Below are positions 312-22,239 of a stretch of DNA of 22,563 nt, piece after piece. The notes beneath the pieces are model-generated. The model was not told the origin of the DNA. It was given only the letters and a program-made list of their open reading frames with translations, and ran no database searches. The stretch is from positions 1-22,563 of the IMG/VR virus record IMGVR_UViG_3300047481_000299; one strand, 5' to 3'. The stretch comes from a virus. The translations under genes and the position numbers were made by a program. Each line of letters begins with the position of its first letter. Within the stretch, counting starts at the first letter, position 1.

Positions 312-1346
312 ATGTCTCAAGTACGTATTAAGTCAGGTAGCTATCGTAGTTTTGTAGCAGACGGTAAAGTGTTTGAGCTAGTCAAGCAGTTTCAACCCAG
401 TGGCAACCCCAATGTTGGTGGCTATGTCACAGTTAAGAATGGTGGTACTTTTGCTGGTATGCCTGAGACCATTCGTATCAAAGTCGCAGCATTTACTGAC
501 TACGAGTTTGTTGGCGAAGACGCTGCTCCCGCAGTAAGTGAGGTAGTTGCTCAAGCTCAAGCCGTTACTCAAACTGATGAAGAGCGTATTGCAGAGATTG
601 CAGAACGCTTTGCTATACTTAATGATATGGCTAAAGCCTGTATCGCAGGCGACATTCGTGCTATGATTGTGTCTGGTCCGCCAGGAGTAGGCAAGAGTTT
701 TACAGTAGAACGTGAAGTTGAGAAAGCACAATTGCTGGATCAAATTGCTGGCACAAGACTTCGTGCAGAAGTTGTAAAAGGTAGTGCTACGCCAATTGGC
801 TTGTATCAGACTCTGTACAAGTACTCAGACAAGAACTGTGTGCTGGTGTTTGATGACTGCGACAGTATTTTGCTTGACGACGTTTCGTTAAACTTGCTAA
901 AAGGTGCTCTAGACTCAGGCAAGAAGCGCAAGATTTCTTGGCTCAGTGAAAGTGCTGCTCTCAAGCGTGAAGGTATCCCTGACAGCTTTGAGTTCCGCGG
1001 CTCGGTAATTTTTATTACTAATCTTAAGTTTGACGCAATGAAGTCACAGAAGTTGCGTGATCACTTGGATGCACTGCAAAGCCGCTGTCACTATTTGGAC
1101 TTGACGCTTGACACCATGCGTGACAAGTTGCTACGTATTCGCCAAATTGCTGGCACTGGTGACTTGTTTGCAGACTATGAGTTTGAGTCTGGTGAGGACC
1201 AAGAAGTTATTGCGTTCATGGAGCGTCACCAAAGTCGCTTACGCGAAATGAGCTTGCGTATGGCAACTAAGATTGCTGACTTGCGTAAGACGTTCCCTGC
1301 AAAGTGGCAGTCACTGGCTCAGTCAACTTGCATGAAAATGGCATGA
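312..1346 (+). CDS. AAA+ family ATPase
   Basis: A 344-residue protein. Residues 1-70 look like a separate small beta-rich domain (YVTVKNGGTF, IRIKVAAF), followed by an Ala/Val/Gln-rich linker (~72-88). The ATPase core has Walker A GPPGVGKS (122-129), Walker B VLVFDDCD (177-184), sensor 1 IFITN (233-237) and a likely arginine finger at R258 in LQSRCHYLDL. A single AAA+ domain with a D-D-x-D Walker B suggests a ring-forming remodeler or loader. The substrate cannot be inferred. It is not clearly the T4 clamp loader gp44, which lacks this N-terminal domain. It has its own promoter (251-279) and an SD at 300-303. Its stop overlaps the next start (ATGA), so the two are probably translationally coupled. 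Confidence 0.85.
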   Translation: MSQVRIKSGSYRSFVADGKVFELVKQFQPSGNPNVGGYVTVKNGGTFAGMPETIRIKVAAFTDYEFVGEDAAPAVSEVVAQAQAVTQTDEERIAEIAERFAILNDMAKACIAGDIRAMIVSGPPGVGKSFTVEREVEKAQLLDQIAGTRLRAEVVKGSATPIGLYQTLYKYSDKNCVLVFDDCDSILLDDVSLNLLKGALDSGKKRKISWLSESAALKREGIPDSFEFRGSVIFITNLKFDAMKSQKLRDHLDALQSRCHYLDLTLDTMRDKLLRIRQIAGTGDLFADYEFESGEDQEVIAFMERHQSRLREMSLRMATKIADLRKTFPAKWQSLAQSTCMKMA

Positions 1347-3793: not shown

Positions 3794-4900
3794 ATGAAAC
3801 GTTTGAATTATGTGGAAGATTATATAGATCTTTTAGCGAAACATCACCAACTTACTTGGCCACCAGTTGCTCCTTTAATTAAATTAGCCAGATACGATGA
3901 GCCAATTGTGGCTGGGATGGCGGAACAACTTAATCAAAATACAGGCTTTACTGATAAGCAGGCAGAGCTAGCTCATAAAATTGTAATGAAATATCGCAAA
4001 CAATGGACTGGCATTGGTTACGATGTAGAACATCTTTCCGTACCCAAGTACCGGCTGCCTATTAGAAAGATTGATAGAAGGAAAATAGTTGATATCAAAA
4101 ATAATCAAATTCAATTAAGATTTCCCTACGATCAAGATTTGATTAGCAAAATACGAGCAGCAGTAAACGACATCCCAGGAAGTTTATTTTTTGATAGAGA
4201 ACAACGTGCCTGGTGTGCAGCCATGATTGAACCAAGAATAGTATGGGCTAAAGAATTTGGCTGTATGTATCAATTTGACTTTACTGAGGAATTCGATTAT
4301 GTGTTAAATACTTTGTTGAGTCAAAAAGATTATAGTATTGAACTAGTTAGAATTAACAATGAATTTAAAATCACTAATGCACATGATTCTTTACTACAAT
4401 ATATCGATGAACATGGTGGGTTAGTTGACAGTAATCTATTACAACTACTCGATCTAAGTGGTATATGTTGTTATTCTGTCAATCCAAGTATATTCAATGA
4501 ACTTAAAATAGATGATGTCATACGGAATATGTTGACTAATAGAGAATTAAATTTATTATATGGTCAAGCGGGAATTAATTTGCAACCAGCTATTGAATAT
4601 GCTAAAATTACTAATAGGTTTCCAATTTATGTATACGAAAATGGCCACAATGTGATGCGTAAACAGTTAGATAAGTATTTCTCCGCATCACAAATAGTCG
4701 AACGAAAAAATACAACTAGTACCAATGATGTAATATATTTCAACCATTGGAAATACTCAGATGAATATATGCCTTTATTATTGACTACTCATACATTGAT
4801 GATTGGTAATAGACGTTTACAAATGCTGCATGCCGCAGAAAAAGTTTTTTATTATACACAGGAAATAGTAACCGATAATGCAATGTCAGCTATTAATTAA
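3794..4900 (+). CDS. HARP-like domain protein preceding UvsW
   Basis: A 368-residue protein and first gene of the replication/repair operon. Residues 51-71 (GFTDKQAELAHKIVMKYRKQW) are a helical motif I recall in phage helicase-associated proteins. Residues 107-141 (IQLRFPYDQDLISKIRAA, then PGSLFFDREQRAW) fit the HARP pattern: F-x-Y-x-x-x-L-I-x-x-I-R, then P-G, then W/F-D, then W. In SMARCAL1-type annealing helicases HARP precedes the helicase core and binds DNA forks. The remaining ~220 residues are unassigned. No ATPase motif is visible, so the protein may be a DNA-binding partner of the helicase encoded by the overlapping next gene (23-nt overlap). There is no SD, consistent with a leaderless mRNA. 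Confidence 0.6.
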   Translation: MKRLNYVEDYIDLLAKHHQLTWPPVAPLIKLARYDEPIVAGMAEQLNQNTGFTDKQAELAHKIVMKYRKQWTGIGYDVEHLSVPKYRLPIRKIDRRKIVDIKNNQIQLRFPYDQDLISKIRAAVNDIPGSLFFDREQRAWCAAMIEPRIVWAKEFGCMYQFDFTEEFDYVLNTLLSQKDYSIELVRINNEFKITNAHDSLLQYIDEHGGLVDSNLLQLLDLSGICCYSVNPSIFNELKIDDVIRNMLTNRELNLLYGQAGINLQPAIEYAKITNRFPIYVYENGHNVMRKQLDKYFSASQIVERKNTTSTNDVIYFNHWKYSDEYMPLLLTTHTLMIGNRRLQMLHAAEKVFYYTQEIVTDNAMSAIN

Positions 4901-6332
4901 GGACGAAGTCAATGTCAAGATCGATGGATTAGATGTAAATACACGCCGAGATCTGACTAAACACTTTAAATATGAAGTACCTGGAGCGAGATATCTACCG
5001 GCGGTACGATTAGGTCGGTGGGACGGAAAAGTTAGTTATTTCAGTTTGGCTGGTTCTACTTACATCAATCTGTTACCAGAAATAGTCCCTATGTTAGAAG
5101 AACGTGGATATGATATCAATCTACAAGATACAAGATCTTATTCTACTACATTTTCTTTTGAACAAGTGCATGAACAAAGTTTTCAGCATCAGCATTGGCC
5201 AGACGGGCATACCCAAGTTGGGTTGCCTGTGCTATTACGCGATTATCAAGTTGAAATAGTCAATCGTTTTTTACAAAATCCTCAATGTATACAGGAAGTT
5301 GCTACCGGTGCCGGAAAAACCATTATGACAGCAACTTTAAGTGCCAGTGTTGAAAAATATGGTCGTAGTATAGTCATTGTGCCAAACAAAAGTTTAGTGA
5401 CACAAACTGAAAAAGATTATCATGTACTGGGATTAGATGTTGGAGTATATTTTGGTGACCGTAAAGAGTTTGGCCATCGTCATACTATTTGCACGTGGCA
5501 AAGTTTAAATGTACTTTTAAAAAATACCACGCAAGGCAGTGCCGATATAGCCATTGGAGAATTTCTTAATAATGTAGTATGTGTTATAGTAGATGAAGTA
5601 CACATGGCCAAGGCAGATGCCTTGAAATCATTATTAACCGGGGCAATGAGTCATGTACCCATTCGATGGGGATTGACCGGCACTGTGCCAAAAGAAGAAT
5701 ATAATCGTTTAGCCATATTGTGTACATTGGGTCCAGTAATAGGTCAACTTAGTGCCAGTGAGTTACAAGAACAAGGTGTATTGGCTGAATGTCATGTTAA
5801 TATTGTTCAATTACAGGATCACAAAGAGTACACAAATTATCAAAGTGAACTCAAATATCTATTAGAAAATCAAGATAGATTAGATTATATCAGCAGCATG
5901 ATTGAACGCATACGCGGTTCGGGCAATACTTTGATCCTTATTGACCGTGTGGCTGCCGGCCGTGCTTTAGTAGAACGAATTCGAGATGCGGTATTTGTAT
6001 CAGGTGCTACCAAAGGTAGTGAAAGGCAAGAAGAATATGACGAAGTGGCAACGGCAGCAGATAAAGTCATTGTCGCAACCTACGGTGTAGCAGCAGTTGG
6101 CATCAATATTCCTAGGATTTTTAATCTTGTGCTTGTTGAGCCTGGTAAGAGTTTTGTACGTGTCATACAAAGCATTGGGCGTGGTATTCGCAAAGCGTCA
6201 GACAAAGACTTCGTACAGATCTGGGATATAACATCATCGTGCAAGTTTGCCAAGCGGCATCTTACACAGCGTAAGTCTTTTTATAAAGAGGCTAATTATC
6301 CATTTGACTTTGAGAGAGTAGAATACTTATAA
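4878..6332 (+). CDS. uvsW: UvsW-type superfamily 2 DNA/RNA helicase
   Basis: A 484-residue protein, close to T4 UvsW (about 500). An N-terminal DNA-binding domain with RLGRWDGKVSYF (44-55) parallels the NPRFRYGNWDG region of T4 UvsW. The helicase core has the Q-like LRDYQVEIV (120-128), Walker A ATGAGKT (142-148), DEVH (239-242), motif III LTGT (266-269), motif V ATYGVAAVGIN (400-410) and motif VI QSIGRGIR (431-438). UvsW unwinds branched intermediates and R-loops and moves T4 from origin-dependent to recombination-dependent replication. The gene overlaps the HARP-like gene, so the two products may act together. The next gene has its own promoter inside the 3' end of this one. Alternatives such as a generic UvsW/RecG-like helicase are less likely. 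Confidence 0.93.
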   Translation: MQCQLLIKDEVNVKIDGLDVNTRRDLTKHFKYEVPGARYLPAVRLGRWDGKVSYFSLAGSTYINLLPEIVPMLEERGYDINLQDTRSYSTTFSFEQVHEQSFQHQHWPDGHTQVGLPVLLRDYQVEIVNRFLQNPQCIQEVATGAGKTIMTATLSASVEKYGRSIVIVPNKSLVTQTEKDYHVLGLDVGVYFGDRKEFGHRHTICTWQSLNVLLKNTTQGSADIAIGEFLNNVVCVIVDEVHMAKADALKSLLTGAMSHVPIRWGLTGTVPKEEYNRLAILCTLGPVIGQLSASELQEQGVLAECHVNIVQLQDHKEYTNYQSELKYLLENQDRLDYISSMIERIRGSGNTLILIDRVAAGRALVERIRDAVFVSGATKGSERQEEYDEVATAADKVIVATYGVAAVGINIPRIFNLVLVEPGKSFVRVIQSIGRGIRKASDKDFVQIWDITSSCKFAKRHLTQRKSFYKEANYPFDFERVEYL

Positions 6333-6339: not shown

Positions 6340-6849
6340 ATGTCAAGAATACTTAATTTAGATACCAATAGGTCTTATGACCTTAATGAAATACCCGACG
6401 AAGTAGAAGATCTACGATTTTGTGTATTGGATAATTCTGATCCCAAAACACCAGACTATTTTTATATTCCATTAATATTTCTCGAAAGTTTTAATTCGCC
6501 AGCACTGGTATTACGCATAGGTGATCATACAGTGAAAATGCCTGTAGATTGGCAATTATTAATAGGTGAGATTGATTTAGGTGATCTCGAAGTCGTACCA
6601 CTTACAAGTATAAATGATCGTGGGTTCTCAGCCTTTTGTTTCAATCCAATTACTAGTTATCGGCCTGAGTTTCATCAAGTCGAAATCATCGATATCTATC
6701 AAGATGTAAAATGGTATTTTCCTAAACTTAAACCTGGTCAAATGTTAGCAGTTCCTTTAAATACAGATGATGACAATCCATTGTGTGCGTTTTTTGTAAA
6801 AGACATAAGTCGAGTAAGTGAAGTAGTTGACTTTGGAAAGGCATGGTAA
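6340..6849 (+). CDS. Conserved T4-like marine phage hypothetical protein
   Basis: A 169-residue soluble protein with mostly beta character. Its conserved-looking centre is MPVDWQLLIGEIDLGDLEVV (60-79), then INDRGFSAFCFNPITSYRPEF and a late LCAFFVKD. I recall proteins with this signature from marine T4-like phages, where no function is assigned. No enzymatic motif, signal peptide or membrane segment is visible. It has its own promoter (6304-6333) and no SD. Its stop overlaps the next start (TAATG), indicating coupled translation with the following gene. Confidence 0.65.
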   Translation: MSRILNLDTNRSYDLNEIPDEVEDLRFCVLDNSDPKTPDYFYIPLIFLESFNSPALVLRIGDHTVKMPVDWQLLIGEIDLGDLEVVPLTSINDRGFSAFCFNPITSYRPEFHQVEIIDIYQDVKWYFPKLKPGQMLAVPLNTDDDNPLCAFFVKDISRVSEVVDFGKAW

Positions 6850-15400: not shown

Positions 15401-16204
15401 TTTGCAATAACAGCTAGTGTTGATTCGCTTAATGTTGTAAGCTCATTGACTATCAATACTTTTGCAACCGAAAACGTTAGTGCTAACGTATTAACTGCTA
15501 ATACAGCAAGTGTAATTGCTTTAACCGCTACTAATGCAGTTATATCAAGTAATGTTAGTATAGGCGGTAATATTAGTGTAGTGGGTACATCAACATTGAC
15601 AGGGTATACCGCAGCAACAGGCACAGTTGGTAATTTAAACGCCAATGTATTTGTAGCTAATTCTGTGTCATCAACAGAAGGTACAATAAATCAATTAACA
15701 AGTATCAATGCTGCTATAACTAACACCGCTACCATAAGTGGAACTGCCAATATTGCAATAGCTATATTGGAGATTACAACCGCTAATGTAATTACTGCTA
15801 ATACACTAACTGTAAGCGGAAATATTAACGGATCTGGTAATAATTTATCTGGATTCGCTAATGTTGCAAGAACAGGTTCGTACACTGATTTAATAAATAC
15901 TCCTGCCACAAACTATGAACCCAAGTTTGACATTAGAACAGCAGACTTTACAGCAAATGTAGGCAGACGTTATGGCATAGATACTAGAGTTGGAACAATT
16001 ATATCTACATTACCTAACTCAGGACTCACAGCAGGTGATGCTATATTCTTCATTGATGCCGGCGGTGATTTTACCGCTAACAACTTTACCATAGCCAGAA
16101 ATGGTAATACTATCAATGGCGTTGGTTCAAACTTTGTTGCAAATACCAATGGGGATAGTGTTGGAGTATTTTGGAATGGAACAGGTTGGAGAACTTACCA
16201 ATGA
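9425..16204 (+). CDS. Giant repetitive tail-fibre-like protein
   Basis: A 2259-residue, Asn/Ala/Thr-rich, Cys-poor protein. Residues 18-57 (LFKRQTTPVAEVYVGPSGEL then FDTGLKGLRVHDGVTAGG) match the N-terminal module of many phage fibres. Residues ~140-650 are heptad-like EANARIAADTSLQANI repeats, probably a trimeric coiled coil. Four LGxxxxRWxDIY-type modules occur near 694, 1065, 1252 and 1552. FPDGTxQTTAF-type motifs occur near 745, 1302 and 1751. NTDPxALDSLTEL-type motifs occur near 500, 1335 and 1430. A ~130-residue domain is present twice (about 1102-1227 and 1602-1734). TTGxYxDLxxxP repeats fall at about 1820-1875, with another near the end. The C-terminal ~100 residues (ending GVFWNGTGWRTYQ) look like a receptor-facing cap; no autocleaving chaperone domain was seen. 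It probably binds the host surface. Confidence 0.85.
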   Translation: MTISNTVLNLNVRQLLFKRQTTPVAEVYVGPSGELVFDTGLKGLRVHDGVTAGGTRVPTLQDANNFSNTWSVYWSNVYVQAGLEPVYQSIAGAISYAGNIEQGVNAITGNLTPALARLEAVWQSLGNNTSFLDLVTTGFANINNSLSNEVNRAVTAENYLEALISTETNVRIANVTSINSQFANVIVSINDEISTRAAADAVFTTNIAQLNVGLTNEIAAREAADLLLANDISNEANARIAADTTEANLRANADTLLTNTITTEIANRQANISAEANTRIAEDTSLQANIIIERTERLANVVALYANVADERTRAITSENAIDANLQAEITARIAGNVTLSNLLVAETLRATTKEAQIDANVTAANIARILADAVIDANVILVNTNMLANVAIERQARLDLGNLLNANIAVVVSNFANGLILANANLTTEITRAVAAETVLQTNIYNEANARISGNTVLLTLLNAETTNRQANIAIVNATISSESANRIANVTNLQTQINNILNNTSPGALDSLAELVLAFQAADANLLVTINTLSTGANSALSLETTRATQAETSLQNNINFESNLRAAAINLVYSTIASNSAAQTAAITAETTARAAAIVSLQSNIVAEQTARILSDVLIQANLATEITARITAVSNEANTRSAAIASLTANIVAIESREDNIVNGAFTVDLNNTGQLNVPGHVIPKNNLNQDLGSPTQRWRDLYISASTINMGTGNISIDPVAGLQIQNAGVPVPVTGNIRFPDGTAQTTAFLPVFITNEANARTAADNSLQSNITTVDTARITGNTVVSAIITQEISDRAAADTSLQANITAVNTASTTGNTIVSARITTEIADRISADANLQANINTVNAASISGNTIVSARITQEILDRISADANLQANINTVNAASISGNTIVSARITQEITDRSNADVLLQANITTLSNAITTANTVSNTLMLRAVSDEANLRIAADTSLQSNIVAALNSANASIITANTIITTRLNTEITDRIANVASAEANIIVERTRALEAEANIAANVANLTVQVVTGLKPSLLNSSFFANLTTSGELQTPGNVYSVASNGSNLGTSVYPWNAVYAKNAGIFLGNAGIRLTEGGNLTVATAVQSTGVGTQFNEIEWSNTLSQIVFRVYENTEMYALMTKFVGGEIIEAVTPFTRTIRVTGIPSYPTTPSGVDGSSVAYYNFTVPVNEVRPGGLVPATLVTYQYIISCRLVVQPRTSIGSLTNGSITADISTGGNLLLPGNVIPKSTNLYTLGTATRIWQDIYLDGTARFNNVTMTVNTAGVRVTNISNTSLPYFGNIVFPDNTIQTTAFLTSYITNEANTRANAVANLQSQLNFIKTNTDPAALDSLTELLANFNATSSNVASVANTAVFAEFLRANTVETAITANLNSEIVRAIAAETSLQANIVTANITLANIIANVTANLQSQINYINQNTDVSSIDSLTEIVTHFGNVTANNFNTLADGINTEANIRANADAALLANITTESATRSNAITAITANITTLFTLIAAPVVANLTNGNNSVRLGSTDALTITVANTVLTGNLVSTSSNNDIGHPSRRWHDIYLTGNLNVTSNISGTPGAVIGSTIYFDDVGITSDRNGAVGVLSEEFGLSSTPATVLDAQWVGNVISLADFVTPSNAHIAKNNTIKNIMSNLVGGEQLIVTFPFTTTLTILTKPVQGFGDVWTFTVNETRPSGAFSIGIINYTYQFLNRFRFLQSSRSTVRSLTNYGRTLLLSETGNVVMPTNGNIVFNDNTVQQTAFRYEFITSLQSNITSNISSNVIIANTAIIASLTATNVTATNITFTGNVTGSGAALTGFANVARTGVYSDLTERPTLANIATTGNYSDISGTPILANVATTGAYADLTGRPANVSLFNNDSDYANVTFVATQIAAFNSTISTNVITANTATITSLTATNITGLNDATFNNLIVTSGTITSLTVATQNANVFVANTANIASFRATNVTITNGAFASNLVVSAYASFQNSFSNNLFAITASVDSLNVVSSLTINTFATENVSANVLTANTASVIALTATNAVISSNVSIGGNISVVGTSTLTGYTAATGTVGNLNANVFVANSVSSTEGTINQLTSINAAITNTATISGTANIAIAILEITTANVITANTLTVSGNINGSGNNLSGFANVARTGSYTDLINTPATNYEPKFDIRTADFTANVGRRYGIDTRVGTIISTLPNSGLTAGDAIFFIDAGGDFTANNFTIARNGNTINGVGSNFVANTNGDSVGVFWNGTGWRTYQ
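11720..12259 (+). repeat. Tandem 108-bp (36-residue) repeats in the fibre gene
   Basis: Five in-register units start at 11720, 11828, 11936, 12044 and 12152. Each encodes the pattern DRxxADxxLQANIxTVNxAS, then xxGNTIVSARITxEI. Units 3 and 4 are almost identical at DNA level: comparing 11936-12040 with 12044-12148 I find a single difference. The outer units are diverged. This indicates a recent duplication inside an older array. Confidence 0.85.
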
Positions 16205-16403: not shown

Positions 16404-17381
16404 ATGTTGTCGTCTATACAAAATACAGTTACACAATTAATACCTGCCAGGCGTAGACGTAGTCCCAGTGGATGGATTAGTTTCGACGCGGTTTGTTGCT
16501 ATCATAGAGGGCAAAGAGCCGACACCAGAGGTAGAGGTGGTATAATCACTGGAGCCGACGGTGCTGTAACTTATCATTGCTTTAATTGTAATTTTAAAGC
16601 TGGATATAAGCCAGGTAATTATCTTGGTTACAAATTTAGACGGCTTTTAGGTTGGTTAGGTGCCGACGACAATACCATAAACCGTTTGGTGATCGAATCG
16701 GTTAGAATCAAAGACCTAACTCCACAACTCGAAACTCAAGAAGAAGATGAAAAAATCTCTTTTAAAGCAAGACCGTTGCCAGATGATTGCCAGTTAGTAG
16801 ATTCAGATCCCATAGCTTTAGAATATTGTAAACAACGTGCTATCGATTTAGATCGTTATCCATTGCTAGTAAGTAGTCGGACCGAGTATAACCTTAATCG
16901 TCGTATTATTATTCCGTTTACCTGGCAAGGACAATTAATTGGATATACCAGTCGTTGTTGGGATCCGGCAGTAAAACCAAAGTACTATAGCAGCATTGAG
17001 GCTAACTATGTGTACAACATCGACATGCAAAGCCCAACAGCAAAATTTGCAATTGTCTGCGAAGGACCATTTGATGCTATGAGTATTGATGGCATCGCTA
17101 TATTAGGTAATGAATGCAGCGAAACACAAATGAATATCATCGACAATCTCAACAGAGAAATTATATTAGTTCCTGATGCTGATCGTGCAGGAGCCAAGTT
17201 GGTTGATAGTGCATTAGATTTTGGATGGTCGGTGAGTTTTCCAATTTGGCAAGAAACCTGTAAAGACATTAATCAAGCAGTAGTCAAGTATGGTAAACTA
17301 TTTGTATTAAAAAGTATATTAATGGGCAAAGAATCATCTCGATTAAGAATTGGAATCAAACGTAAACTATTATTAAAATAA
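16404..17381 (+). CDS. 61: DNA primase (gp61/DnaG-type with TOPRIM domain)
   Basis: A 325-residue protein, close to T4 gp61 (about 340). The N-terminal zinc-binding region has VCCYHRG (30-36) and YHCFNCNF (57-64), i.e. Cys31/32-His34 and Cys59-Cys62, which recognises the template. The TOPRIM catalytic core shows VCEGPFDAMS (218-227), with the conserved Glu220, then LVPDADRAG (255-263) with the metal-binding Asp258 and Asp260, followed by KDINQAVVKYG (287-297). It makes RNA primers at the fork and would work with the helicase encoded 1 nt downstream. Its promoter and a possible operator lie directly before the start; no SD is present. Confidence 0.9.
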   Translation: MLSSIQNTVTQLIPARRRRSPSGWISFDAVCCYHRGQRADTRGRGGIITGADGAVTYHCFNCNFKAGYKPGNYLGYKFRRLLGWLGADDNTINRLVIESVRIKDLTPQLETQEEDEKISFKARPLPDDCQLVDSDPIALEYCKQRAIDLDRYPLLVSSRTEYNLNRRIIIPFTWQGQLIGYTSRCWDPAVKPKYYSSIEANYVYNIDMQSPTAKFAIVCEGPFDAMSIDGIAILGNECSETQMNIIDNLNREIILVPDADRAGAKLVDSALDFGWSVSFPIWQETCKDINQAVVKYGKLFVLKSILMGKESSRLRIGIKRKLLLK

Positions 17382-17382
17382 T

Positions 17383-18789
17383 ATGGAAAAAGACTATCCT
17401 GTTGATTTACAAAAATTGTTTTTAGAAATTATGCTATCTGATGCACAGAGTTTCGTGCGAGTGCAAAATATCTTTAATCACGAAAACTTTGATCGTAGTG
17501 TACGTGAAGCTGCAAAATTTATTGCAGATCATACTAGAAAATATACAGTGGTTCCTACCTACGAACAGATACGTGCAGTCACCGCCACTGAATTAAATAG
17601 AGTTGAGTTAGACGAATCACAATTGAATTGGTTTTTGGAAGAATTTGAAAATTTTACTCGCCGACAGGAATTAGAACGTGCGATATTAAAATCGGCCGAT
17701 TTGATAGCCAAAGGTGACTATAATCCGGTAGAAAAGTTAATCAAAGACGCAGTTCAAATTAGTTTAACTAAAGATATGGGCACTGACTATTTCGCAGATC
17801 CCAAACAACGATTAATCTTATTAAAAAGCAATAATGGTCAAGTTAGTACAGGTTGGCCCAACTTAGACAAAATATTATATGGTGGTTTCAACCGAGGAGA
17901 ACTACAAATTTTTGCGGGAGGGTCTGGATCTGGTAAAAGTTTAGTCATGCAAAACTTGTCAGTGAATTGGGTATTAGCTGGATTAAATGGTGTGTATCTT
18001 ACATTAGAACTCAGCGAAGGATTATGTAGCATGAGGATTGATAGTATGGTGACTGACACCAGTAGTAAAGAAATATTTAAGGACATTGATAATGTAGACA
18101 TGAAATTGCGTATAGTTGGAAAAAAGTCTGGACGACTGCAAGTTAAGTATATGCCAGCACAAAGTAATGTAAATGATATACGCAGTTATGTTAAAGAACT
18201 TCAAATCCAATCTGGGAACAAGATTGATTTCCTGTGCGTTGATTATTTAGATTTGATCATGCCGGTGTCAGCTAAAGTAAGTCCTAACGATTTATTTGTC
18301 AAAGACAAGTATGTATCAGAAGAACTACGAAACTTAGCTAAAGAATTAAATGTATTGTTTGTTACTGCTTCGCAGTTGAATAGATCAGCCGTAGAAGAGG
18401 TTGAGTTTGATCATAGCCATATAGCAGGTGGTATCAGTAAGATTAATACAGCAGACAACGTGTTTGGTATCTTTACTAGTCGTGCCATGCGTGAACGTGG
18501 CAAATATCAAATTCAAGCAATGAAAACACGTAGTAGCAGTGGTGTAGGACAAAAGGTTGAGCTAGAATTTGATATCGAAACTCTGCGTATACGTGATCTA
18601 GCAGATGATGGTGAGTATAATAAATTTAAGAAACAATCCAGTACAATTTACGATCAAATCAAAAGTAAAAGTACAATTACTACCAATGACAATGTACCCC
18701 AGGATCAACCAGGACAAATTACAGTGACACCTACTACCAGCAAGTTAAAAGAAATGTTGGCTGGTCTTAAAAGTAATAGAACTGTTTAA
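17383..18789 (+). CDS. 41: Replicative DNA helicase (DnaB/gp41 type)
   Basis: A 468-residue protein, the size of T4 gp41 (475). Residues 1-125 form the helical N-terminal domain. The RecA-like core has FAGGSGSGKS (177-186, Walker A), LTLELSE (206-212) with the catalytic Glu209, FLCVDYLDLI (283-292, Walker B), VTASQLNRSA (327-336) and the DnaB-like KTRSSSGVG segment (381-389) with basic residues. The C-terminal tail (KLKEMLAGLK) probably binds a partner such as the primase or loader. It unwinds DNA 5'->3' on the lagging-strand template. It begins 1 nt after the primase stop without an SD, so translation is probably coupled. Its 3' end overlaps the convergent polymerase gene by 4 nt with no terminator between. 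Confidence 0.93.
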   Translation: MEKDYPVDLQKLFLEIMLSDAQSFVRVQNIFNHENFDRSVREAAKFIADHTRKYTVVPTYEQIRAVTATELNRVELDESQLNWFLEEFENFTRRQELERAILKSADLIAKGDYNPVEKLIKDAVQISLTKDMGTDYFADPKQRLILLKSNNGQVSTGWPNLDKILYGGFNRGELQIFAGGSGSGKSLVMQNLSVNWVLAGLNGVYLTLELSEGLCSMRIDSMVTDTSSKEIFKDIDNVDMKLRIVGKKSGRLQVKYMPAQSNVNDIRSYVKELQIQSGNKIDFLCVDYLDLIMPVSAKVSPNDLFVKDKYVSEELRNLAKELNVLFVTASQLNRSAVEEVEFDHSHIAGGISKINTADNVFGIFTSRAMRERGKYQIQAMKTRSSSGVGQKVELEFDIETLRIRDLADDGEYNKFKKQSSTIYDQIKSKSTITTNDNVPQDQPGQITVTPTTSKLKEMLAGLKSNRTV

Positions 18790-20510
18790 AATTTAAAAGT
18801 ATCAATCTCAAAGCATTCTATATAACAACTGTCGTTGTTCATACGTAGCCTTCCATTACCTGCCACATAATCAAAATCACTATAACCAACAGGTTTACGC
18901 ACAGTGATATCAATATATTGTCCATTCCCAACGCCCAAGGTAAGAAATGTTACATATTTGCCAGTTTCGCCTTTAAACACACGCCCATTGGCGATTAATC
19001 CTACAAATTCAAATCTATCTTGATAGGTATTCATGCAGTACATATTAGGCAAAAATTTGTCCGTAGCCCACCATCCTTGTTTTTTATATTCCCAAATTGG
19101 ATCTAATGGTATACCATTATGATATCCTAGACTTCTGAGGTCGACTCCTGCTCGATATGCCTCTCTACGATACACCCAACGCCGATAACTGCCTTGGCAA
19201 TGTTTTAAACAAGCCTCCCAAAATTTCACAGGATTATGTGCCTTTTGATAAGCCAATGCCCAAATCAATCTACCGAGATTAACAGCATGAGCTCGACACA
19301 GACCAAAGTTGCCTAATTGGTAAAGTTCGTTAATAATATTTTTTTTATTTTCACTATGGCCTATTAGTTCCATGAATTCTAGTACACGTTCTTCGTTACG
19401 TTTAGCAAAAGCACGACGATACATGTCTGCTTGGTATTGGTCACAACCAATTAACTTTGATATTTTATATATGGCATCGTCTTCATAAACTATAGTATCT
19501 GATAGTTTTTGTTCTGTCCAATCATGGAAAAAACTGGCTTTTTGTCTACCTGTGGTAGCAACAGGACGCACCAATGCAGTAGCAAAAACGCAGTCTGATC
19601 GATTTTTTGGTTTTATAGCACGAAATAGTCTACGCATGGCTGGCGATTCGCCTTGTGTTACACCTAACACATCTCCATTGGTCAACAGTTGACAGGTTGC
19701 TTCATCAGTTTCAGGATAGTCTTCTAGTCCAAGACTTGGATCAATTTCTACCAGCTGGCTCAGCCCACGATTCGCTAATATATCTACTTTAAGATGCTCT
19801 AGGTCTTCGATTTCATTCTTGTCGAGTAGTATTTGATTTTCACCATTTTTTAAACTGCGAGGTAATTTATATTTGAATACCAGTATACCGCCACAATGTT
19901 TACTGATGGCACGTTTTTGTCCGAGTAGTTTACGCTCAATTCTACCTGCTTCGGTAGGATCTACTCCTAGTTTTTCATAGCTGAAATTTCTTGGCAATTT
20001 GCCAGTGGCACCTAACCTACGTGCAGCTTCACGTCTAGCAGATTTAGTTTTGAATTTAACATAGTTACTGATTCTAGCAGTGCGTCCAGGCCAACGGTCA
20101 AATATACGATTCATCACTGTTTCTTGTGCCCAGTGTGGGTAATCAATATCTACGTCTGGCAAATCATCACGCAAGGGATTAATAAAACGTGCCAGTGGTA
20201 TATTCCATAATATGGGATCAACATCTGTGATCCCTAGTAGGTAGCAGACCAGGCTTGAGCCTGCGCTACCTCTAGTCATATGTGGAATGTCATTGGTTAA
20301 TTCTAAGATGTCACATATTTGATGAAAGTACTCAGCGAACCTTAGATTAAAAATTAGAGTGATTTCTTCAGCTAATCTTTGATTATATTCTTGTGTATCG
20401 GGGCAATTTCTTTTAAACCTGGCAAATAATTTCTCTACTGACTGGGCGTCGATGTTTTCCATAATTGATAAACCTTTTAAAGACCATAATGTATCCATAT
20501 TTAGTTTCAT
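18786..20510 (-). CDS. dnaE: PHP-less DnaE-like DNA polymerase III alpha subunit
   Basis: A 574-residue C-family polymerase. In order it shows RLAEEITLIFNLRFAEYFHQ (45-64, the region just after PHP in DnaE) and RGSAGSS (80-86). The palm motif is PDVDIDY (118-124) with Asp119/Asp121. HCGGILVF (205-212) is followed by HLKVDIL (239-245) with the third Asp243. QGESPAMRRLF (286-296) precedes ALVRP (312-316) and GLCRAHAV (403-410, like the NKSHA motif). At the end is an OB-fold-like FVGLIANGRVFKGETGKYVT (502-521). Cellular DnaE is about 1160 residues; here the ~270-residue PHP domain is absent and other regions are shortened. The start at 20510 has no clear SD; an ATG four codons later is an alternative. 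It is transcribed against its neighbours, converging on the helicase gene. Confidence 0.88.
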   Translation of the reverse strand: MKLNMDTLWSLKGLSIMENIDAQSVEKLFARFKRNCPDTQEYNQRLAEEITLIFNLRFAEYFHQICDILELTNDIPHMTRGSAGSSLVCYLLGITDVDPILWNIPLARFINPLRDDLPDVDIDYPHWAQETVMNRIFDRWPGRTARISNYVKFKTKSARREAARRLGATGKLPRNFSYEKLGVDPTEAGRIERKLLGQKRAISKHCGGILVFKYKLPRSLKNGENQILLDKNEIEDLEHLKVDILANRGLSQLVEIDPSLGLEDYPETDEATCQLLTNGDVLGVTQGESPAMRRLFRAIKPKNRSDCVFATALVRPVATTGRQKASFFHDWTEQKLSDTIVYEDDAIYKISKLIGCDQYQADMYRRAFAKRNEERVLEFMELIGHSENKKNIINELYQLGNFGLCRAHAVNLGRLIWALAYQKAHNPVKFWEACLKHCQGSYRRWVYRREAYRAGVDLRSLGYHNGIPLDPIWEYKKQGWWATDKFLPNMYCMNTYQDRFEFVGLIANGRVFKGETGKYVTFLTLGVGNGQYIDITVRKPVGYSDFDYVAGNGRLRMNNDSCYIECFEIDTFKF

Positions 20511-20817: not shown

Positions 20818-21535
20818 TGAAGTTACAACAATAGACGAAGGTCCATGGGATATAATGCGTCGCGGATGGCAAGGCATGAAGTCTGCGTATCGTGCTGGGC
20901 AAGATAAACTTATGGCCAACAAAATATCTAGTAGATTGATGAGAGACTGGGCGGGATATGCACAACAAGTAGAAAATAATTATAACGTAACAGATTGGTC
21001 TAAGGTGTTACAGTCATATGGTAATCTTTCTTTTCCCAATGTCAAATCTAGTATACCAGTTCCAAAAATTACTTCACCAGGTGGTGCTTTCTTTGATTCA
21101 AACATAGCCAATTATATCAAAGCCAGAACTCAAGAATATATGCAAATGCAAGGTCAAAAAGACGACTTTCCAGACTTAGACGCTAAACCGGATCAACCTG
21201 TTCCGGCCACAGAACCACCAAAACCAGCACCAAAGCCTGTGGCCCCAGAAATAGTACCACAGGATTCAGCCGGGCCGAGTAGAATGGTATCTGTGCATCC
21301 ATACCAGGGTATATCATATGCCTACAACGTAATTAAGAATCAATGGATAAACAATCGTACAAATCAAGTCATAGACGATCCTGGGATGATTAAACAACTT
21401 AACATTTCTTATAACAAAGCTAATCAGAGACCTACGTTATACAATATGACCCCGGCTGATAAATTAGCTCAACAACGTGACATTAAACAAAGAAAAGCAG
21501 CACAACGAGCAAGAACAGAACTAGGAATGACCTAA
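20807..21535 (+). CDS. Hypothetical phage protein with proline-rich linker, possible packaged protein
   Basis: A 242-residue protein. The N-terminal domain (~1-115) is basic and helical. Residues ~127-155 form a Pro/Ala/Lys-rich linker (PATEPPKPAPKPVAPEIVP). The C-terminal part starts VSVHPYQGISYAYNVIKNQW and ends in a highly basic helix (QQRDIKQRKAAQRARTELG). The first residues MKVNEVTTIDEGPWD carry I-D-E before Gly, resembling the (I/L)xE cleavage site for the T4 prohead protease gp21, so it may be packaged and trimmed. I recall related small proteins in marine T4-like phages with unknown roles. The stop overlaps the next start (TAATG). Confidence 0.6.
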   Translation: MKVNEVTTIDEGPWDIMRRGWQGMKSAYRAGQDKLMANKISSRLMRDWAGYAQQVENNYNVTDWSKVLQSYGNLSFPNVKSSIPVPKITSPGGAFFDSNIANYIKARTQEYMQMQGQKDDFPDLDAKPDQPVPATEPPKPAPKPVAPEIVPQDSAGPSRMVSVHPYQGISYAYNVIKNQWINNRTNQVIDDPGMIKQLNISYNKANQRPTLYNMTPADKLAQQRDIKQRKAAQRARTELGMT

Positions 21536-22239
21536 TGTACGTAATAAGAGAAGGTGGTAATGCCATACCCAGTAGTAATCCAGTAGCAAAAGATGACATA
21601 AAAGAAGTGGTAGCTAGGGCCAAGTCTTTGTTACCACCTGCTATTGCTAAAGGTACTCAAGTTGATATAGGTAGTGCTGGATACAAAATAGAATCTGGTG
21701 ACATTGATATTTTTGTTGAAGCACAGGATGTGGTTGACTTTTTCAAAACTGCAGAAGCAAAAGATCCTGTAAAAGATGCCAAACAAATGCTTAAGCGGTA
21801 TTTTGAGGAACAGGGAATACAAAGCGTAGTTATAGGACGCAATGTGCATATAGGAATTCCTTATCGTACAGCACAAAATAAATCTGGATTAGCTCAGGTA
21901 GATGTAATGGTCATACATGATGCTGCTGTGGTCGCTCCTTGGCATCAACATGGTCCGCGTGGGGCTTATGATGACCCCGATTTTAAAGGTAGTGAAGTCT
22001 TTATTTTATTAAACAGTTTAGCCAAATTCAAAAATTTAAAATTTGATGCGTTTGGTGGAAAGCTAATGCAAAGAGATACAAATCAAGTAGTAGGCAGAAC
22101 ACGCAAAGAAGTAGCTAAAATTTTATTAAATCCTGGAGCCAAAGAACGAGATTTAGACAGTGTTAAAAATATTATGGCAGCACTGGCCACAGATCCAGAT
22201 CGAGAAGGTAAACTTGCACAAGCTAGACAAGATCAGTGA
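21535..22239 (+). CDS. Nucleotidyltransferase-fold protein
   Basis: A 234-residue protein. Residues 46-59 (GSAGYKIESGDIDI) match the G-S-x-x-x-K-x-x-S-x-D-I-D signature of the DNA polymerase beta-like nucleotidyltransferase superfamily, with Asp56 and Asp58 as likely metal ligands. QVDVMVI (121-127) supplies the expected third Asp123. Known members add nucleotides to RNA, proteins or antibiotics; the substrate here is unclear. A typical polyA-polymerase C-terminal domain is not evident. TAGGA lies 8 nt upstream of the start. The N-terminus MYVIREGG contains I-R-E before Gly, again like a prohead-protease site. It is followed after 13 nt by a ligase-like gene, so the two could act together in RNA or DNA end repair. 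Confidence 0.75.
   Translation: MYVIREGGNAIPSSNPVAKDDIKEVVARAKSLLPPAIAKGTQVDIGSAGYKIESGDIDIFVEAQDVVDFFKTAEAKDPVKDAKQMLKRYFEEQGIQSVVIGRNVHIGIPYRTAQNKSGLAQVDVMVIHDAAVVAPWHQHGPRGAYDDPDFKGSEVFILLNSLAKFKNLKFDAFGGKLMQRDTNQVVGRTRKEVAKILLNPGAKERDLDSVKNIMAALATDPDREGKLAQARQDQ

Follow-up and report, generated by a model that had tools for sequence, protein, structure and literature searches.

The window, which is the whole stretch of 22,563 nucleotides of viral DNA that was analysed, encodes a C-family DNA polymerase that lacks the PHP domain and consists of a single chain (the one-piece enzyme). We propose that it is probably a second, accessory, non-proofreading polymerase of a large T4-type phage, working with the primosome. 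A first-pass annotation of the same DNA had placed a PHP-less, half-size DnaE polymerase beside a T4-type helicase and primase, and both the enzyme and its neighbours were recovered here:

18786..20510, minus strand: one-piece PHP-less C-family DNA polymerase (574 aa; Pfam, AlphaFold2 model and PDB matches)
17383..18789, plus strand: gp41-like DnaB-family replicative helicase (PF03796; PHROG 19; T4 gp41 by phmmer, 1e-24)
16404..17381, plus strand: gp61-like primase (Toprim; PHROG 47, E 2.8e-35)

The polymerase reading frame contains 0 internal stops. Its true start is probably Met17 (position 20462), which gives a protein of 558 aa, since relatives start at the equivalent codon and AAAGG lies upstream of Met17; a signal of this type was not found ahead of Met1. 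The Pfam search matched PF07733 (DnaE palm/thumb; E 1.5e-38, model positions 8-260) and PF17657 (fingers; E 8e-14) and found no PHP, HhH, exonuclease or CTD, and the best PHROG was PHROG 405. Compared with the C-family (DnaE/PolC) as a whole, the protein has the Pol-beta-like palm, the PDxDxD motif, the third Asp, the thumb and the fingers, and it lacks the PHP domain. Compared with DnaE-type enzymes, it has the C-terminal OB domain and lacks the HhH, the beta-clamp-binding motif and the CTD. These results confirm that the reading frame encodes an intact C-family core made of palm, thumb, fingers and a C-terminal OB fold.

An AlphaFold2 model was built from the window sequence together with viral and bacterial homologues (mean pLDDT 86.8, pTM 0.86). 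The highest DnaE match in the PDB was M. tuberculosis DnaE1 (Z 33.8), and Taq DnaE was matched with its OB domain included (Z 32.3, model residues 21-573). Residues 20-464 of the model align with residues 284-834 of E. coli alpha, which shows that the chain begins where the PHP domain would end, as had been claimed earlier. The structure alignment places the end of the fingers near residue 464 and the beginning of the OB domain near 496. The C-terminal segment that had been called OB-like is an OB fold of the SSB/PriB-like kind (residues 496-574, Z about 7.8-8.1), with six strands at 491-572.

The palm motifs and the KSHA equivalent reported in the first-pass annotation are present, and the active site is conserved. 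Asp121, Asp123, Asp243, Lys241 and His408 are invariant in 99 viral one-piece sequences and Asp119 is kept in 98 of the 99, the single substitution being the only loss of a catalytic aspartate seen among these homologues. In a 66-row C-family alignment, the catalytic Asp119, Asp121, Asp123 and Asp243 together with Lys241 are invariant. The KSHA equivalent reads CRAHA, and its invariant His408 occupies the position that we take to be the sugar-selecting residue of DnaE; Arg108, Arg114 and Arg365 are also conserved. In the fingers, the canonical YQEQ is replaced by YEDD and RPGPM by RPVA. These substitutions are specific to the family, which shows that it is a remodelled lineage and not a recent truncation, and they could alter the chemistry or the substrate. 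Between the window and the related contig L004, pN was 0.12 and pS was 0.72 for this gene, and in comparisons of the window with 84%-identical relatives, nonsynonymous differences per site were about 6 times less frequent than synonymous differences. The gene is therefore under strong purifying selection, and almost every complete copy has a length of 543-616 aa. The protein might instead be a decayed or non-polymerising nucleotidyltransferase remnant of a DnaE gene, which would fit the loss of PHP, HhH and CTD and the altered finger motifs, but the conserved catalytic triad, Lys241, the three arginines and His408, the purifying selection and the near-constant length make decay very doubtful.

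We also considered that an upstream PHP domain had been lost through faulty assembly. This was rejected on three grounds: a near-identical contig (L002) has a stop 2 codons upstream, what precedes the gene in the window is coding DNA of the opposite strand, and a PHP domain lies upstream of the core in 0 of about 150 contigs with the same architecture.

The same PHP-less design was present in those approximately 150 environmental virus contigs. Increasingly broad pattern scans of IMG/VR returned 23, then 457, then 532 matching contigs, the last two counts possibly taking in some ordinary phage DnaEs. Among 50,697 phage records searched by tblastn, a clear full-length relative (38% identity) was found only in LR756508 (484 kb, unannotated), and looking for single-sequence relatives that resemble LR756508 brought up none. 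In 84,980 species genomes (bacterial and archaeal), patterns specific to the family yielded no confirmed one-piece relative. A broader genome scan returned, among the matches listed, ordinary DnaEs with about 25-31% identity to the one-piece enzyme; the cellular DnaEs examined among them carry 240-370 residues upstream of the core, in the place of the PHP domain, except for one copy at a contig edge. The other sampled annotated phage DnaEs are either full-size or have the PHP domain in an adjoining gene or reading frame. An example is the split DnaE of Microbacterium phage Dauntless, in which a PHP protein of 345 aa (gp55) and a PHP-less polymerase of 766 aa (gp56) lie side by side (L346 1357-4705). 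The Dauntless polymerase chain resembles the one-piece enzyme in lacking PHP, but it retains the HhH and its PHP domain is encoded next door. The earlier suggestion that another gene supplies the PHP function thus has a precedent in Dauntless, but a PHP gene was found in 0 of 18 records related to the window.

A C-family tree, which the first-pass annotation had proposed building, was inferred with IQ-TREE from the 66-row alignment. All of the one-piece sequences included (20/20) fall in one viral clade with support of 100/100, which excludes DnaE1/3, DnaE2 and the remaining sampled phage DnaEs; the tree resolves no sister group for this clade. The bacterial DnaE1/DnaE3 enzymes and the one-piece enzyme share the palm, thumb and fingers fold, the catalytic residues and the C-terminal OB domain, whereas the clamp-binding region, like the PHP, HhH and CTD, belongs to the bacterial enzymes only.

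The phage enzyme could be a dedicated translesion (mutagenic) polymerase, the counterpart of bacterial DnaE2/ImuC. DnaE2 too is an accessory C-family enzyme (PMC3919608, PMC12926913), and like the one-piece enzyme it works without an active PHP proofreader; the absence of a proofreading domain and the presence of the enzyme in addition to a high-fidelity polymerase would agree with such a role. In contrast to the one-piece enzyme, DnaE2 retains its PHP domain, though degraded (PMC12926913), and it keeps the HhH and its imuA/imuB neighbours. Genes like imuA or imuB were not noticed beside the one-piece gene, whose neighbours are replication genes, and the DnaE2 rows form a separate branch of the tree. 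We consider a dedicated mutagenic role unlikely.

As to gp43, the first-pass annotation had offered two possibilities, that the phage has replaced gp43 or that it carries both polymerases. Carrying both holds for the two largest relatives, which are long metagenomic records of 338 and 484 kb, and replacement does not. The 338-kb relative (G001) encodes a complete gp43-like family B polymerase (PolB; 887 aa, exonuclease and polymerase domains both present), as well as T4-like gp41, gp61, gp44, gp46, gp47, gp55, UvsX and UvsW, and LR756508 has PolB matches alongside its one-piece polymerase. In LR756508.1, these matches extend across two long reading frames (260623-266900; 1022 + 625 aa), a layout suggestive of an interrupting intein or intron. 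T4 gp43 is a member of the same kind of replisome as the one-piece enzyme but has an unrelated catalytic fold and its own exonuclease. That the one-piece enzyme is itself the main replicative polymerase, in place of gp43, was suggested by its location with the helicase and primase and by the finding that no PolB was detected in the shorter one-piece relatives (up to 183 kb). However, both records above 300 kb also carry PolB, and in G001 about 199 kb separate the gp43 gene from the one-piece gene and place it farther out than the collinear shorter contigs reach, so the gene order of G001 places PolB outside the contigs that were compared gene by gene. The one-piece enzyme also has no recognised proofreading or clamp site. 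Replacement of gp43 was therefore rejected as the leading explanation and is very improbable. For the phage of the window, we infer gp43, since the window is a 22.5-kb fragment and gp43 is not within it.

The proofreading and clamp functions were also searched for elsewhere. A separate 3'-5' exonuclease, which had been put forward earlier, was not seen in G001, where DnaQ/RNase_T was not found, and single DnaQ/RNase_T matches occur in two other related records. No conserved C-terminal peptide that could bind the beta clamp, as judged by a recognisable motif, was found in the one-piece family. A search for the T4-type clamp gp45 (PF02916), which divergent clamps could escape, gave nothing in G001 and a weak, sub-threshold match in LR756508.

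A second C-family gene, which the first-pass annotation had missed, lies elsewhere in the window, directly downstream of a zinc-finger gene:

7977..8543, plus strand: catalytic C-unit of split minimal Pol III alpha (188 aa; phrog_11778, E 5e-55)
7300..7980, plus strand: zinc-finger protein, PHROG 11058 (PHROG match; same order in seven genomes)

The C-unit starts exactly at the DxDxD motif (DVDID), has its third Asp in IKLDFL (KLD), has only a fingers stub and ends with FKKSHSISYA. Residues D6, D8, D10, K66, D68 and H169 are invariant in 29 relatives. Its model (pLDDT 91) maps on residues 397-779 of E. coli alpha, and only C-family polymerases matched it above background. Iyer et al. (2021, PMC7824862) described a split minimal Pol III alpha that accompanies PolB in group 2.2 jumbo phages, and 7977-8543 encodes the C-terminal half of that enzyme. 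The PHROG 11778 C-half is present in 63 annotated jumbo-phage records, and matches to the N-half in 64. The N-unit (PHROG 11127, 171 aa, GTG start) was found at 1513-2028 on the minus strand of L037, which corresponds to 257441-257956 of G001; there it is near the gp44 clamp-loader gene, and a distance of about 5 kb separates the C-unit gene from that of the one-piece enzyme. Since G001 encodes all three, PolB, the split enzyme and the one-piece enzyme occur together in at least one phage of the group. In each of the seven genomes compared, the zinc-finger gene immediately precedes that of the C-unit, and the zinc-finger protein is a possible partner of the split polymerase.

The split and one-piece enzymes are both phage-specific and PHP-less, both occur together with a family B polymerase in large phages related to T4, and they have the same three catalytic aspartates. 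The split enzyme consists of two proteins (about 171 + 190 aa) from which most of the thumb, the fingers and the OB domain are missing, whereas the one-piece enzyme is a single chain of 558-574 aa in which thumb and fingers are complete and an OB fold is present. In a tree that included the joined split halves, the two formed separate clades; a union of these clades was not rejected (p-AU 0.31), nor was it supported. The one-piece enzyme might act in one assembly with the split Pol III alpha (PHROG 11127 + 11778), for example as a partner or regulator, given that every large main-lineage relative has the C-unit gene in the same conserved block and that both split halves are present in G001. 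However, LR756508 has PolB and the one-piece enzyme and separate split units were not found in it, the annotated jumbo phages with split units gave no full-length one-piece match by tblastn, and each set has its own clade, which makes a joint assembly quite improbable. The split minimal form is already known; what is new here is the one-piece form with full fingers and OB fold in its own viral clade. Our literature searches, whose coverage was incomplete and took in few subscription journals or preprints, found the split form and not the one-piece form.

The genes of the conserved block upstream of the C-unit are:

312..1346, plus strand: AAA ATPase, PHROG 1250 (Pfam/PHROG searches, genome comparison)
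4878..6332, plus strand: UvsW-like helicase (UvsW_N and ResIII by Pfam; PHROG 16)
6340-6849 and 6843-7310, plus strand: two uncharacterised proteins, PHROG 11279 and PHROG 11758 (conserved between UvsW and the C-unit)

The order in the main lineage, with some gaps at contig ends, is AAA ATPase, UvsW, PHROG 11279, PHROG 11758, PHROG 11058, C-unit, primase, helicase and one-piece polymerase, and the gp61-like primase has a collinear homologue in every large relative of this lineage. In the window, the polymerase gene is convergent with the gp41-like helicase gene and overlaps it by 4 nt. At most main-lineage loci, the one-piece gene adjoins gp41 either convergently or downstream on the same strand, which shows that this neighbourhood survives rearrangement. 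The linkage is not universal, since a second lineage (L271, L282, L323, L334 and others) and LR756508 have the one-piece gene away from gp41. The one-piece polymerase gene of LR756508.1 is followed directly by a gene for a translation elongation factor (PHROG 6880; L025 22253-24298).

The long-lasting position beside the gp41 helicase and gp61 primase suggests that the accessory polymerase acts with the primosome. It is predicted to add dNTPs by DnaE-type two-metal chemistry and, since it has no proofreading PHP domain and no recognised clamp site, it should be short-range and error-prone or depend on other proteins for fidelity. Such an enzyme, presumably active as a polymerase and of low processivity, may extend RNA primers, fill short gaps or pass lesions alongside the primosome, and would then leave the 3' end to gp43, the proofreading polymerase of family B. 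Going further, we suggest tentatively, as a possibility that we would not bet on, that this virus-only PHP-less branch serves a T4-type replisome alongside gp43 as a distinct polymerase for the lagging strand or for primer extension, which with the split enzyme would make three DNA-polymerase systems with divided labour in one virus.

Published work (PMC3666897) describes the PHP domain as a strictly conserved part of replicative C-family polymerases and as a structural necessity in E. coli Pol III. A viral PHP-less family that is widespread and has an intact active site makes this requirement testable on a natural enzyme of 560 aa. The one-piece version also adds to the earlier report that some jumbo phages have a split minimal Pol III alpha in addition to PolB, and it raises the question of why one phage would have several unrelated or diverged DNA polymerases.

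Two further genes of the window lie outside the shared block order:

9425-16204, plus strand: repetitive reading frame of 2259 aa, rich in Ala, Asn and Thr (tail-fibre-like; no PHROG match)
21535-22239, plus strand: nucleotidyltransferase-like protein of 234 aa with the motif GDIDIFV (no Pfam or PHROG match)

The repetitive frame is inserted between the C-unit and the primase, where other relatives have short genes. The nucleotidyltransferase-like protein has a homologue in G001 at 297986-298699.
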